A stretch of DNA of 64,000 bases, from assembly GCF_009068765.1 (NCBI RefSeq), contig NZ_CP035534.1, positions 1,054,001 to 1,118,000 of the forward strand, written 5' to 3'. The notes under the pieces were generated by a model, which saw only the letters and a program-made list of their open reading frames with translations, did no database searches and was not told the origin of the DNA. How positions within the stretch are numbered: the stretch's first letter is position 1; the number at the start of each line of letters is the position of its first letter. The stretch comes from Sulfurimonas hydrogeniphila (GTDB taxonomy: Bacteria > Campylobacterota > Campylobacteria > Campylobacterales > Sulfurimonadaceae). Below are positions 39,630 to 44,319 of the stretch, one piece after another. Both the position numbers and the translations under genes were made by a program.

Positions 39630-39704
39630 GGCCCCGTCGTCTAGCGGTTAGGATCCATGGTTTTCATCCATGTTACAGGAGTTCGATTCTCCTCGGGGTC
39701 ACCA
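39630..39704 (+). tRNA. tRNA-Glu (anticodon TTC)
   Basis: Acceptor GGCCCCG with the matching CGGGGTC and A, then encoded CCA; D arm GTCTAGCGGTTAGGA; anticodon stem CATGG/CCATG with loop TTTTCAT giving TTC; T arm GGAGTTCGATTCTCC. Total 75 bases. It stands alone, 167 bases from the converging GlnRS gene. Confidence 0.97.
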
Positions 39705-39792: not shown

Positions 39793-39831
39793 ACCCGTAC
39801 TTTCAATGCTAAAGAAAGAGTGCGGGCTTTG
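39793..39831. repeat. Inverted flanking element of glnS, downstream copy
   Basis: ACCCGTACTTTC (39793-39804) and GTGCGGGCTTTG (39820-39831) can fold into an interrupted hairpin and may terminate glnS. The reverse complements of both 12-base blocks recur on the other side of the gene at 42175-42200. The gap 39705-39870 holds nothing else I can identify. Confidence 0.7.
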
Positions 39832-39870
39832 TGCCTTTAATAACTAAGGCCAGGAGGTTGTGAAAAAATA

Positions 39871-42129
39871 TCAAATCGCCAATTTTTGTTTTACAAGCTC
39901 ATTTACAATTTTAGGATTTGCTTTACCCCCTGTCTTTTTCAATACCTGTCCTACAAAGAAACCAAACAGCTTGTTATTCCCTGCTTTGTATTTTGCCACA
40001 TTATCAGGATTGTTTGCAATAACTTCATCGATAACAGGTAAAATTTGAGCCGGATCACTGATCTGCACCAGCCCTTTTGCTTGAACTATCTGCGTCGGGT
40101 TTTCTCCACTCTTTGACATATCCTCAAACACCTGTTTGGCAATTTTACTTGAGATAATATCTTCTTCAATCATTTTTGCCAGTTGTGCTATATGCACGGG
40201 GCCGAATTTCAGCGTCTCTGCATCTGTGTTTTTAAGCACTCTGGCTACTTCATTGACTACAATATTTGAGAGTGTGACAGGCGCGTTACATGTACAGAGT
40301 GCCTCTTCAAAAAAGTCACAGAGAAAGGCATCACGAGCCAGCGTATTTGCAACCTCATTGTTGAGTTTCAGTGTATCTGTATATTTTTCAAATACTTTTT
40401 TTTGCTCCTCTGTCATAGGTGTTACTTCACCGTCTATTTGTACCTGTTTGGCTTTTTGTTGTGTTGCCTGCTGTTTTGGTTTTTCTTTTTTCGTCCAGGA
40501 GTCTTTCAGTCCGACAATTTTGTTAAATACAGGGTGCGCATCGCTGTAATCAACCGGATCAGCATAAAAATAGCCTTGTCTCTCAAACTGAAACCTCTCA
40601 TCCGGTTTTTCAAGTATCACAGCAGGTTCAATCAGCGCATTTTTAATGATTTGCAAAGAGTTTGGATTTAAGTCTTCAATCCCCTCCGGTGCTTCAGTTT
40701 TAAACAGTCTGTCGTACAGACGGATCTCTATTTTTTTTGCCTCTGCTGCGCTCACCCATTGAATGGCACTTTTTACTTTGATGCCGCTTGTATCTTTCGT
40801 ACCGCTTTTGGAATCGGGATAATACTCTGCTTTTATTTCTGTAATATTTCCATCGGCATCTTTAATGATCTCTTTACATGTAATGATATAGCCGTGTCTT
40901 AGTCTCACAGGCTGTTCAGGAGTAAGACGGAAGTAACCTTTTGGAGGATTCTCTTCAAAGTCTGCCCGTTCGATATAAAGCTCTTTTGAAAAAGGAATCT
41001 TTCTTGAACCCTCTTTTGGAACATCATGCGGATAGTACGGTGCCTCAATCTCCTCAGAGCCTTCATAGTTTTCAATTGTGACCTTCAAAGGGTCCATCAC
41101 GCACATGACACGGGGAACTTTTGTGTTTAAATCATCGCGTATAGAAAATTCAAGCTGTGCAACATCAACCACAGAGTTTGCTTTTGCTATACCGATTTGC
41201 TCACAAAAATTTAAAATGGACTCCGGTGTGTATCCTCTCCTTCTGTACCCTGCAATTGTAGGCAGACGAGGATCGTCCCATCCGTTTACATAGCCTCCCT
41301 CAACCAGTTCCAAAAGTTTTCTTTTGCTCATCACTGTATAGTTGATGTTGAGTCTTGCAAATTCATACTGATAGGGACGGGGCGGTTTCAGTTCAAGCGT
41401 ATCGAGTACCCAGTCGTAAATATCACGATTGTTTTCAAATTCCAAGGTACAAATTGAGTGTGTGACCCCCTCTATATAATCAGACAAACAGTGTGCAAAA
41501 TCATACATCGGGTAGATTGACCATGTATCCCCTGCTCTAAAGTGATGTGCATGTCTTATACGGTATAAAAGCGGGTCTCTCATTTTCATATTGGCTGCAC
41601 CCATATCTATCTTAGCCCGTAAAACATGCTCACCGTCTTTAAATTCGCCCTTTTTCATTCTTTGGAAAAGATCGAGATTTTCTTCAACACTTCTGCTTGC
41701 ATATTTACTGCGCTTTCCGGGCTGTGTAACAGTGCCGCGGTATTGGCGTATTTCATCTTCGCTCAGACTGTCGACATAGGCTTTGCCCATTTTGATAAGC
41801 TGCACCGCATAATCATATATCTGAGAAAAATAATCAGAGGTAAAATAAAGATTCTCACCCCAGTCAAATCCAAGCCATCTGACGGCATCTTCAAGAGCTT
41901 CTACATACTTTGTATCTTCTTTTGTCGGATTGGTGTCATCCATTCGCAGGTTGCAGTGACCGTTATAATCACGGGCAATACCAAAATTTATAGATATGGA
42001 CTTGGCATGTCCGATATGCGGAAAACCGTTGGGCTCGGGCGGAAACCTTGTTACTATCTCTTTGTATTTTCCTGATTTTAAATCATTTTCAACTATTGTA
42101 CGTAAAAAATCTTTTTTTTTATTGTTCAT
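39871..42129 (-). CDS. glnS: Glutaminyl-tRNA synthetase fused to a YqeY-like domain
   Basis: Charges tRNA-Gln directly. Residues 1-560 are a class I GlnRS: TRFPPEPNGFPHIGHAKSI with HIGH at 38-41, LRMDDTNPTKED, and the KMSKS variant VMSKRKLLELVEGGYV near 275, then the two-barrel anticodon domain. After a Lys/Gln-rich linker, residues 590-752 (EEQKKVFEKYTDTLKLNNEVA ... KKTGGKANPKIVNELVK) match the YqeY/GatB tail domain, which improves tRNA affinity in the Deinococcus enzyme. Many Campylobacterota lack GlnRS and use GatCAB amidation, so gene transfer is plausible. Inverted repeats flank the gene. Confidence 0.93.
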   Translation of the reverse strand: MNNKKKDFLRTIVENDLKSGKYKEIVTRFPPEPNGFPHIGHAKSISINFGIARDYNGHCNLRMDDTNPTKEDTKYVEALEDAVRWLGFDWGENLYFTSDYFSQIYDYAVQLIKMGKAYVDSLSEDEIRQYRGTVTQPGKRSKYASRSVEENLDLFQRMKKGEFKDGEHVLRAKIDMGAANMKMRDPLLYRIRHAHHFRAGDTWSIYPMYDFAHCLSDYIEGVTHSICTLEFENNRDIYDWVLDTLELKPPRPYQYEFARLNINYTVMSKRKLLELVEGGYVNGWDDPRLPTIAGYRRRGYTPESILNFCEQIGIAKANSVVDVAQLEFSIRDDLNTKVPRVMCVMDPLKVTIENYEGSEEIEAPYYPHDVPKEGSRKIPFSKELYIERADFEENPPKGYFRLTPEQPVRLRHGYIITCKEIIKDADGNITEIKAEYYPDSKSGTKDTSGIKVKSAIQWVSAAEAKKIEIRLYDRLFKTEAPEGIEDLNPNSLQIIKNALIEPAVILEKPDERFQFERQGYFYADPVDYSDAHPVFNKIVGLKDSWTKKEKPKQQATQQKAKQVQIDGEVTPMTEEQKKVFEKYTDTLKLNNEVANTLARDAFLCDFFEEALCTCNAPVTLSNIVVNEVARVLKNTDAETLKFGPVHIAQLAKMIEEDIISSKIAKQVFEDMSKSGENPTQIVQAKGLVQISDPAQILPVIDEVIANNPDNVAKYKAGNNKLFGFFVGQVLKKTGGKANPKIVNELVKQKLAI

Positions 42130-42174
42130 TGTTTTTAAACCTTTTATTGTCAGCCATTGAGTCTTTTAAAAATA

Positions 42175-42200
42175 CAAAGCCCGCACGCGAAAGTACGGGT
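42175..42200. repeat. Inverted flanking element of glnS, upstream copy
   Basis: CAAAGCCCGCAC and GAAAGTACGGGT are exact reverse complements of the two blocks at 39820-39831 and 39793-39804, with only 2 bases between them here against 15 there. The pair brackets glnS in inverted orientation. Confidence 0.75.
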
Positions 42201-42311: not shown

Positions 42312-43577
42312 ATGCTAAGATTTGCGTCCAGCCCTATTGGAGACATGCATATAAATGATTTAAGAATTGCACTCTTAAACTACATTGTATCAAAACAAAA
42401 AAATGAAGATTTCATTGTAAGAATAGAAGATATAGACAAAGAAAAAGTTATGCACAATAAAGACCAGGAAACCCTGGATATTTTAGGACTTTTTGGAATT
42501 GAATATTCTCACGTGGTGTATCAAAGCCAAAACCTTCGTTTTCATTCGGCTATGGCTCTGCAACTTTTGCATGAGAAAAAAGCTTTTTCCTGTTTTTGTT
42601 CCGATGAATGGTTGCAAAAAAAGCGCAGTGAAGCAGAAAAAGCGCAAAAAGAGTACCATTATGATGATGCATGCAGAAATCTTCCTGCCGAACTTGTCAT
42701 TGACAATACAGCCCCTTTTACTGTAAGAATAGTACGTCCTGATACACCAGTCATTGTAAAAGACCGGCTTAAAGGTGCAATCAGTTTTGAACCTGATGCT
42801 GTTGACAGTTTTGTGATCATGAATCACGATAAAACGCCTGCCTATGATTTTGCCTGTGCGGTAGATGATATGCTGAGTGATGTTTCAATGATTATTTGCG
42901 ATGAAAAATATCTCAACAATACACCAAAACAGGTACATGTAAGAAACCAGCTCCAATATAACAAAGAGATTGAATATACCCACCTGCACGGTATACAGAA
43001 CAGTGTCAGTGTAAAACAGCTTTTGGAGGAAGGATATTTGCCCGAAGCTATTTCAAATTATTTAATATCAATCGGCAGCAATCCTCCAAAAGAGATTTTT
43101 ACACTCAAAGAAGCGACAGAATGGTTTGACCTGGACAAACTTGCAGATAATCCTGTCCGTTTTGATCAGGATAGGCTGAAACAGATCAACAAAGAGCATT
43201 TAAAAAACCTGGATGCAACAGAGTTGTCTCGTTATGTAGGATTTGCCGACCCGGAAATCGGAGAACTTACACGTATTTATCTTGAAGAAGCGGGGACTAC
43301 AAAAGAGTTGAAAGAAAAAATTGCTTCTATTTTTGCAAAAAGAGTTACTGCCCACGGATTTGCAGAAGAAATGGAGTCAATGGCAAAAGCGATAAAAAAT
43401 GCGCCCTACTTTGAAGAGTATAATGATTTTAAAAACTATATCATGGATAAAACAGGGCTTAAAGATGAAAACTTTTTAAAACCGTTGCGTATACTTCTTA
43501 CAAATGCCGAACATGGGCCTACTATAGAAAAAGTATATAAATATCTGAAAAACTATCTGAAGGAGATTATCAAATGA
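42312..43577 (+). CDS. Degenerate glutamyl-tRNA synthetase paralogue
   Basis: An intact 421-residue frame with clear GluRS ancestry (LRFASSPIGDMHINDLRIAL, FIVRIEDIDKEK, SFVIMNHDKTPAYDFACAVDD, NTPKQVHVRNQL, EEGYLPEAISNYLISIG). The catalytic signatures are lost: HIGH reads HIND (residues 13-16), the RGxDH loop reads ICDEKY near 195, and the segment that should carry KLSKR between the HL motif and SVxxLLEEGYLP is missing near 225-235. Start chosen at 42312, where AGGA is 6 bases upstream. It is probably unable to activate glutamate; a pseudo-enzyme or decaying GluRS2 is likely. Overlaps yggT by 4 bases. Confidence 0.85.
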   Translation: MLRFASSPIGDMHINDLRIALLNYIVSKQKNEDFIVRIEDIDKEKVMHNKDQETLDILGLFGIEYSHVVYQSQNLRFHSAMALQLLHEKKAFSCFCSDEWLQKKRSEAEKAQKEYHYDDACRNLPAELVIDNTAPFTVRIVRPDTPVIVKDRLKGAISFEPDAVDSFVIMNHDKTPAYDFACAVDDMLSDVSMIICDEKYLNNTPKQVHVRNQLQYNKEIEYTHLHGIQNSVSVKQLLEEGYLPEAISNYLISIGSNPPKEIFTLKEATEWFDLDKLADNPVRFDQDRLKQINKEHLKNLDATELSRYVGFADPEIGELTRIYLEEAGTTKELKEKIASIFAKRVTAHGFAEEMESMAKAIKNAPYFEEYNDFKNYIMDKTGLKDENFLKPLRILLTNAEHGPTIEKVYKYLKNYLKEIIK

Positions 43578-43852
43578 GTGCATTAGTTGAAATTATACAG
43601 GGGATCGGCGGAATTTTTATAGGACTTGTAAATGTCTATATCTGGGTGATTATTATTGCAGCGCTGCTGAGTTTTGTGAATCCCGATCCATATAACCCTG
43701 TTGTGCAGTTTCTTCACAGAGTAACAAATCCGGCATACGCGTTTGTAAGAAGATTTATGCGAACAGATTTAAATGGTCTGGATTTCGCACCGCTTATCAT
43801 TATTATAGCACTGCAGGTTCTTATTGTAATTTTACAGTCCATACTTTATTAA
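43574..43852 (+). CDS. YggT family membrane protein
   Basis: 92 residues with two hydrophobic helices (about 10-33 and 71-91) and the intervening motif NPVVQFLHRVTNPAYAFVRR, the YggT signature. The family is implicated in membrane or osmotic functions and often lies near division genes; function is not firmly known. ATG overlaps the preceding stop (ATGA) and has AAGGAG upstream. Confidence 0.88.
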   Translation: MSALVEIIQGIGGIFIGLVNVYIWVIIIAALLSFVNPDPYNPVVQFLHRVTNPAYAFVRRFMRTDLNGLDFAPLIIIIALQVLIVILQSILY

Positions 43853-43863
43853 AGGTGTCCTTT

Positions 43864-44319
43864 TCAACGTTTAAAAGTCAGAATTGTACTGTTTTGTCCT
43901 AATTGGATTTTTAAATGCAAAGTCTCTTTGTTCTGCTTTGCAAATCCGACAAGGTAGTACTTGTTCCATTTTGCATGAAATGATGTAAGTGCTGTAAATT
44001 CATTTTGGACAGGTAATGATTCTACAAGGATTGCAGGTTTTTCGTTGAGATAAAATTCTACTTTGCTCTTTTTGTTTTTTTTATAAAGATAGAGATAGAA
44101 ATATTCATAATCTTTGTAAATTTTCGGATCTGTTTTGTTTAAATACACAGCAGTTACAATTGCGACTACGTCAGCTTTTGTATTGATAACTTTGCTGCTT
44201 TGCAGATTGTCTTCGGCCAACTCTTGAGAATTTTTTAAATGAAATCTTTCAAATGCATTTTTTTGCGCGCACCCCAAAAAAGTTATCAGTAATAAGAGTA
44301 TTGGTAGTGAAAATTTCAT
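43864..44319 (-). CDS. Putative lipoprotein of unknown function
   Basis: A hydrophobic signal followed by a lipobox, LITFLGC, with the acylated cysteine at residue 17. The mature 135-residue part has many Tyr and Lys residues and predicted beta strands (YEYFYLYLYKKNKKSKVEFY) and ends in a basic strand. I do not recognise the family. It converges with yggT and stands alone on this strand, 97 bases from the divergent mobB start. Confidence 0.75.
   Translation of the reverse strand: MKFSLPILLLLITFLGCAQKNAFERFHLKNSQELAEDNLQSSKVINTKADVVAIVTAVYLNKTDPKIYKDYEYFYLYLYKKNKKSKVEFYLNEKPAILVESLPVQNEFTALTSFHAKWNKYYLVGFAKQNKETLHLKIQLGQNSTILTFKR

Follow-up and report, generated by a model that had tools for sequence, protein, structure and literature searches.

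The gltX2 locus

The window, i.e. the 64,000-nucleotide stretch of Sulfurimonas hydrogeniphila DNA analysed here, belongs to a genome represented by a single contig of 2.34 Mb and carries a gene of the glutamyl-tRNA synthetase (GluRS) family, gltX2, that lies between a glutaminyl-tRNA synthetase (GlnRS) gene, glnS, and a gene for a yggT-family membrane protein (Table 1). Translation of the window ORF gives 421 codons and a stop without interruption, and its start coincides with those of its orthologues in the alignment. The original prediction had described a GluRS paralogue with HIGH altered to HIND, an ICDEKY loop, a missing KMSKS segment and an intact 421-codon frame, and translation and alignment bear out each of these points; compared with the 432-aa orthologues, 11 residues including GKKMSKRDDAS are absent after about residue 230, and the HIGH plus KMSKS signature of an active bacterial GluRS is lacking.

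Table 1. Features in and around gltX2, with positions in the window
Feature	Position	Strand	Remarks
tRNA-Glu(UUC)	39630..39704	+	on the far side of glnS from gltX2
glnS, GlnRS-YqeY fusion	39871..42129	-	752 aa; HIGH and MSKR intact; divergent from gltX2
gltX2, pseudo-GluRS2	42312..43577	+	421 aa; orthologue alignment and profile matches
HIGH position, now HIND (residues 13-16)	42348..42359	+	HIGN in intact orthologues
Retained Cys94, Cys96 and Cys121, connective-peptide (zinc-site-like) region	42591..42674	+	retained in 95-97% of 87 degenerate representatives
Retained Asp185-Asp186-Met187	42864..42872	+	98% retained; majority residue in 26/26 loss clades
R-G-E-D-H loop position, now ICDEKY (residues 195-200)	42894..42911	+	IRGEDH in intact orthologues
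Deletion site of the KMSKS-containing 11 residues (between residues ~229 and 232)	42996..43007	+	alignment with 432-aa orthologues
Altered anticodon-domain motif TGLKDENFLKPLR	43452..43490	+	intact orthologue G113 reads SGLKGKNFFKPLR
yggT-family membrane protein gene	43574..43852	+	start overlaps gltX2 stop (ATGA) by 4 nt

The protein matches the bacterial GluRS profile TIGR00464 (gltX_bact) with 309.2 bits against a cut-off of 289.95, the match extending to residue 413, and PF00749 with 173.4 bits, while its C-terminal domain scores weakly against Anticodon_2 (17.4 bits, below the cut-off of 23.6). It shares 43-92% identity with the GluRS2 proteins of its family as against 32% with the GluRS1 of its own genome, which upholds the proposal that the paralogue is GluRS2; as judged from these identities, it is an orthologue of the tRNA-Gln-specific GluRS2 of Campylobacterota. 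Five Sulfurimonas contigs from metagenome-assembled genomes (MAGs) encode proteins 62-89% identical to it. Identification as GluQRS (YadB) was rejected, the score being 137.1 bits against an equivalog cut-off of 276.7 and the match not being restricted to the catalytic domain. AlphaFold2 with a 6-sequence alignment returned a mean pLDDT of 45 and a pTM of 0.30.

The yggT family name is taken from relatives that are matched by PF02325 and align with the window ORF. Of the loci with enough flank, 105 stripped and 85 intact, all but one stripped locus have yggT starting within 30 nt of the end of gltX2, with overlap at 103 and 83 of them respectively, and the window gene shows this conserved Campylobacterota GluRS2 neighbourhood. 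We take the gltX2-yggT order, which is also that of Helicobacter and Campylobacter, to identify the GluRS2 locus. After yggT, on the opposite strand, the window holds a small lipoprotein-like ORF (43864-44319); in several relatives the place after yggT is taken by a long ORF of some 490 aa or more.

Genome context

A search for another gltX found one (G000:C1:133081-134160), whose 462-aa product has intact HIGG and KLSKRDG motifs, and the window gene is therefore not the only gltX of its genome. With regard to gatCAB, gatA was the gene searched, in the window genome, and it is present. The single glnS copy of the genome lies head-to-head with gltX2, as originally described, at a distance of 182 nt, and its product scores 1232.7 bits against NF011291 and 713 bits against TIGR00440. 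Among home-family loci (those of the family of the window genome) with enough flank, a tRNA-Glu gene lies on the same strand within 300 nt upstream of gltX2 at 26 of 60 GlnRS-negative and 8 of 47 GlnRS-positive loci; from this arrangement it seems that, in the window, glnS was inserted between tRNA-Glu(UUC) and gltX2. In the f19 loci (e.g. L173, L183 and L192), unlike the head-to-head arrangement of the window, glnS, a stripped gltX2 and yggT follow each other in the same direction, with glnS about 5 nt upstream of gltX2.

An imperfect 21-nt inverted repeat flanks the window glnS (39820-39840 and 42166-42186), and its arms share GTGCGGGCTTTGT exactly. L009 showed no such repeat, and the arms may represent a pair of related terminator hairpins.

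The 121 family genomes, that of the window included, yielded no asnS match (E 1e-100), while 7 of 14 control genomes were matched. For this reason GatCAB is expected still to be needed for Asn-tRNA-Asn, irrespective of the route to charged tRNA-Gln.

Motif loss in GluRS2 goes with GlnRS

GlnRS was detected in 51 of the 121 home-family genomes. All listed GluRS2 matches were used, giving 113 full-length genes; the eight genomes that contributed none have partial genes (G016, G019, G080, G093, G119) or no gene that was found (G027, G074, G107). In GlnRS-positive genomes 43 of the 49 full-length genes are stripped (31 with the loop deleted, 12 with it altered) and 6 are intact, as against 4 stripped and 60 intact among the 64 from GlnRS-negative genomes, where one gene scored intact, that of G098 with the loop KKMSKQDDAF, is borderline. 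GlnRS-negative here means no TIGR00440 match at E 1e-100. A re-check of ten family genomes and the five MAG genomes with NF011291 at 1e-3 disclosed a GlnRS fragment in G093, whose partial GluRS2 is uncounted. The four GlnRS-negative genomes with stripped genes (G078, G072, G048, G018) are drafts, 92-97% complete, in which the looser search (NF011291, 1e-3) found no GlnRS. In G072 and G048, two small related drafts, the GluRS1-like match has an in-frame TAA; the two are either genuine exceptions or the result of an artefact of the draft or the alignment. All five MAG loci with stripped GluRS2 come from GlnRS-positive genomes.

A draw of 248 genomes across the order contains 87 with GlnRS, and the search for GluRS2 covered every GlnRS-positive genome of this draw outside the home family, 72 in number. 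There, 52 of 56 full-length genes are stripped and 4 intact. One of the four genomes with an intact gene, G317, has as its only GlnRS match a sequence with 15 in-frame TAA/TAG codons that reads as an open frame of 715 codons only with the ciliate code (TAA/TAG as Gln); the contig bearing it (L291, G317:C171:6800-10400), binned in a Campylobacterota genome, looks like eukaryotic contamination, and G317 was dropped from the GlnRS-positive count for this reason. This leaves 52 of 55 outside the home family and 95 of 104 in the order, with nine GlnRS-positive genomes retaining an intact GluRS2. All 12 genes sampled from GlnRS-negative genomes outside the home family are intact, but these were hand-picked from listed long matches and are biased to intact, and the home-family table is the more reliable. 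Altogether 194 GluRS2 frames were extracted after 12 GluRS1 sequences had been set aside, of which 181 full-length frames were counted; the other 13 comprise the five MAG loci (L007 being cut by a contig end) and eight frames that are cut by contig ends or shorter than 250 aa.

Two GlnRS-positive genomes of family f9 (G128, G171) gave zero matches to the query at E 0.001, GluRS1 included; it may be that they have a highly divergent GluRS or one of a different type. Plasmid records, searched at the protein level, returned 110 records, all below 60% identity, the eight listed being ordinary gltX or unannotated.

The independence of the losses was assessed on a maximum-likelihood GluRS2 tree of 144 representatives from which the motif columns were left out. 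The intact and stripped states require 24 changes on this tree, and rooting at an intact f10 sequence gives 26 maximal all-stripped clades, i.e. about 24-26 losses by this reconstruction; the tree may group fast-evolving rows, and the clade numbers are approximate because the 18-member loss clade of the window includes a genome of another genus (G003). Fifteen independent pairs differing in GlnRS (supported branches) agreed on average in 9.6 cases, were opposite in 0.2 and showed no difference in 5.2 (sign test, median p 0.0039); the tree and the pair test still scored G317 as GlnRS-positive, which weakens the correlation. The same signatures have been lost repeatedly, almost only in GlnRS-positive genomes and beyond chance. 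The earlier idea that GlnRS may have freed the paralogue is supported as regards release from charging, loss going with GlnRS in many independent lineages and a second gltX and gatA being present in the window genome. Transfer of stripped GluRS2 and GlnRS as one unit was rejected: the nearest tree rows to the window gene are other GluRS2 genes of the genus Sulfurimonas, with the intact G113 in the first five, and G073 has an intact GluRS2 beside GlnRS.

What is lost and what is retained

Over the 133 columns that do not vary among intact genes, mean retention in stripped genes is 0.33 for the catalytic motifs, 0.43 for the anticodon motif and 0.81 for the remaining columns, residue roles (active site, tRNA contact) being those that we assume from Thermus and E. 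coli GluRS. By clade majority, 21 of the 26 loss clades differ from intact genes at the loop glycine (column 197) and 16 have a deletion at the KMSKS Met and Lys positions; Lys397 of the G-K-G-K motif has become Glu in 18 clades, Asp in 2 and Asn in 2, and remains Lys in 4. Mean net charge falls from -7.4 in intact to -15.6 in stripped proteins, and from +2.4 to -1.1 over columns 380-410; intact proteins from GlnRS-positive genomes have values of -9.6 and +1.2. By contrast with these losses, Cys94, Asp185, Asp186, Met187, Gly252 and Asn304 hold the majority in every loss clade (26 of 26), and the retained Cys96, Cys121, Met187, Tyr216, Tyr222 and Tyr420 differ from the 12 GluRS1 sequences compared. 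The pattern of retention points to a preserved scaffold and against tRNA binding in the canonical mode. The suggested new role as a tRNA binder or tRNA-modification enzyme is accordingly not favoured, the basic anticodon-domain motif being among the most altered parts and the GluQRS models scoring far below cut-off.

Pairwise dN/dS (Nei-Gojobori; pairs within lineages are not independent) has a median of 0.131 in 84 stripped pairs as against 0.075 in 305 intact pairs (dS 0.2-2), and is 0.157 in 13 stripped as against 0.049 in 11 intact pooled close pairs, so that stripped genes stand at about two to three times the intact value; the window gene gives 0.110 with G106 and 0.123 with L009. By region, the ratio in stripped genes has its minimum (0.114) in the N-terminal Rossmann half and its maximum (0.263) over the anticodon motif, and stands at 0.171 in the 3' end with the yggT start. 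Simulated neutral evolution of the window gene by 0.34 substitutions per site (the dS between the window gene and that of G106) produced a mean of 11 stops and a minimum of 2 in 500 runs, as against none in the real gene. Because the frames are open and dN/dS is about 0.1-0.16, stripped GluRS2 is considered to be under purifying selection; a pseudogene was rejected on the same grounds, and two marks of a pseudoenzyme, loss of catalytic residues and purifying selection on the protein, are found. The originally proposed release of the paralogue to decay thus holds in so far as some lineages erode the gene further or lose it, but does not describe the many frames that are open and selected.

In some families GluRS2 is shortened to 278-395 aa; the C-terminal domain is lost in G247, G330 and G153, and part of the connective-peptide region in some copies. 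Eleven GlnRS-positive genomes have yggT in place and no gltX2 beside it, which indicates that the retained role is dispensable in some lineages and that yggT is independent of gltX2. In G268 glnS is directly upstream of yggT, and in four further GlnRS-positive genomes (G027, G107, G156, G157) neither gltX2 nor yggT was found.

The tRNA-Gln query matched 77 of 80 genomes, and copies were read as sequence in 64 of them: 33 in the 26 GlnRS-negative genomes and 44 in the 38 that are GlnRS-positive. U1, A72, U73 and CCA occur in 76 of these 77 copies, the exception (G071) lacking an encoded CCA. Since both groups share U1, A72 and U73, the swap between GluRS2 and GlnRS required no change at these bases, and altered tRNA-Gln ends were ruled out as its driving force.

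Proposed origin and role of the stripped protein

On the sequence evidence the window gene is a conserved pseudo-GluRS2, one case of an outcome that GlnRS acquisition has had repeatedly across the phylum. We consider it probable that this is a retired GluRS2 which no longer charges, or probably even reads, tRNA-Gln and is kept for a non-charging role. The ancestral enzyme would have charged tRNA-Gln with glutamate for subsequent amidation by GatCAB; glnS would then have been gained by horizontal transfer, GlnRS taking over the formation of Gln-tRNA-Gln, and glutamylation by GluRS2 would have become redundant and, through a presumed competition, probably counter-productive. The ATP site (HIGH, KMSKS and the glycine of R-G-x-D-H) and the basic anticodon-domain motif would have been lost repeatedly and in parallel, whence we infer the death of catalysis and of tRNA reading, while the scaffold stayed under purifying selection, most likely for a pre-existing second role of GluRS2 that requires neither ATP nor tRNA charging; our bet is a role with a protein partner, perhaps GatCAB. 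We count against this explanation the eleven gene losses, the truncated copies, the raised dN/dS, the four GlnRS-negative drafts with stripped genes, the nine GlnRS-positive genomes with intact ones, and the tRNA-Gln ends, which are unchanged between the groups.

The most serious competitor, which we regard as unlikely, is slow decay, in which translational coupling to yggT and avoidance of misfolding alone keep open the frame of a jobless protein on its way out. The near-universal adjacency and overlap with yggT at stripped and intact loci alike, the stepwise shortening to 278-420 aa with outright losses, and the roughly threefold dN/dS of stripped over intact genes in pooled close pairs are what such decay would leave. 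Yet no part of the gene has a dN/dS anywhere near 1, the minimum is at the N-terminal rather than the yggT-bearing 3' end, the same six residues (C94, D185, D186, M187, G252, N304) prevail in every loss clade, and the genomes that keep yggT without an adjacent gltX2 show the coupling to be replaceable. It is much less probable that chemistry persists, on another substrate or at an altered site, as in an amino-acid-ligase or GluQRS-like activity: at positions that we take from Thermus GluRS to form the glutamate pocket, retention is partial (Arg3 0.99, Glu39 0.75, mean of six positions 0.76), but nothing common to the stripped genes replaces the lost HIGH, KMSKS and R-G-x-D-H glycine, no more than about 55-61% of them retain Tyr178 and Arg196, and the GluQRS score (137 against 276.7) argues the same way.

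That GlnRS is the non-functional partner and GluRS2 the working enzyme is a reading to which we give hardly any credence. It was suggested as possible for epsilon-proteobacteria in 2014, the portion of PMC3927822 available describing GluRS2 in all ten genomes analysed, where it seemed obligatory, and a scattered GlnRS in six. The larger sampling places the motif loss in the GluRS2 of GlnRS-positive genomes, whereas GlnRS has intact motifs, dN/dS of 0.035 and 0.064 in two pairs of the window glnS with relatives, and the TIGR00440 match given above; as to which enzyme is non-functional, the suggestion, as far as that portion of PMC3927822 conveys it, is reversed here.

In the swap from GluRS2 and GatCAB to GlnRS, then, the displaced synthetase has usually been disarmed and kept rather than deleted, and the genes form a graded natural series for the origin of a pseudoenzyme (intact, altered, loop deleted, truncated, gone). 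A gltX annotation in such genomes is no proof of GluRS activity. More tentatively, and with somewhat less than even confidence, we propose that Campylobacterota GluRS2 has an unrecognised second function, independent of ATP and charging, which is masked by essential charging and exposed when GlnRS takes over. If so, it would concern the GluRS2 of relatives as well, where charging masks it, and the losses would amount to some two dozen natural separation-of-function experiments that leave the scaffold without catalysis or anticodon reading.

Comparison with known systems

No report linking GluRS2 motif loss to GlnRS was found in the open-access literature, a scope outside which most subscription papers and all bioRxiv preprints fall. 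To our knowledge, the genome of Helicobacter pylori lacks GlnRS. A close known counterpart is H. pylori GluRS2 (GltX2), which belongs to the same family by motif and by genome distribution as the second GluRS of the phylum, intact relatives of the window protein having the H-phi-G-N version of HIGH (excerpts of PMC3927822 and PMC6523644); the likeness rests on these two features, the alignment containing no H. pylori sequence. According to the accessible part of PMC6523644 the H. pylori enzyme is active on tRNA-Gln, whereas HIGH, KMSKS and the basic anticodon motif are gone from the window protein, whose gene stands beside that for GlnRS. Thermotoga maritima GluRS2 is likewise a second GluRS, reported in the part of PMC3927822 available as inactive on both tRNAs, but is described there as a gene-duplicated catalytic domain in hyperthermophiles, and is thus of another origin. 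In the present case inactivation recurs within one phylum together with GlnRS.

HisZ is a class II protein with a known enzyme partner, whereas the window protein is of class I and has many independent origins. The two are alike in that HisZ and other synthetase-derived proteins, in the available portions of PMC9734150 and PMC9437257, are synthetase paralogues retained for another job, as would be the case here. GluQRS (YadB), the sole GluRS paralogue given in the table of PMC9437257, resembles the window protein as a GluRS paralogue without part of the canonical function; however, it is active on tRNA-Asp and consists of the catalytic domain only (PMC3542578, from the part available), and the window protein scores far below the GluQRS cut-off.
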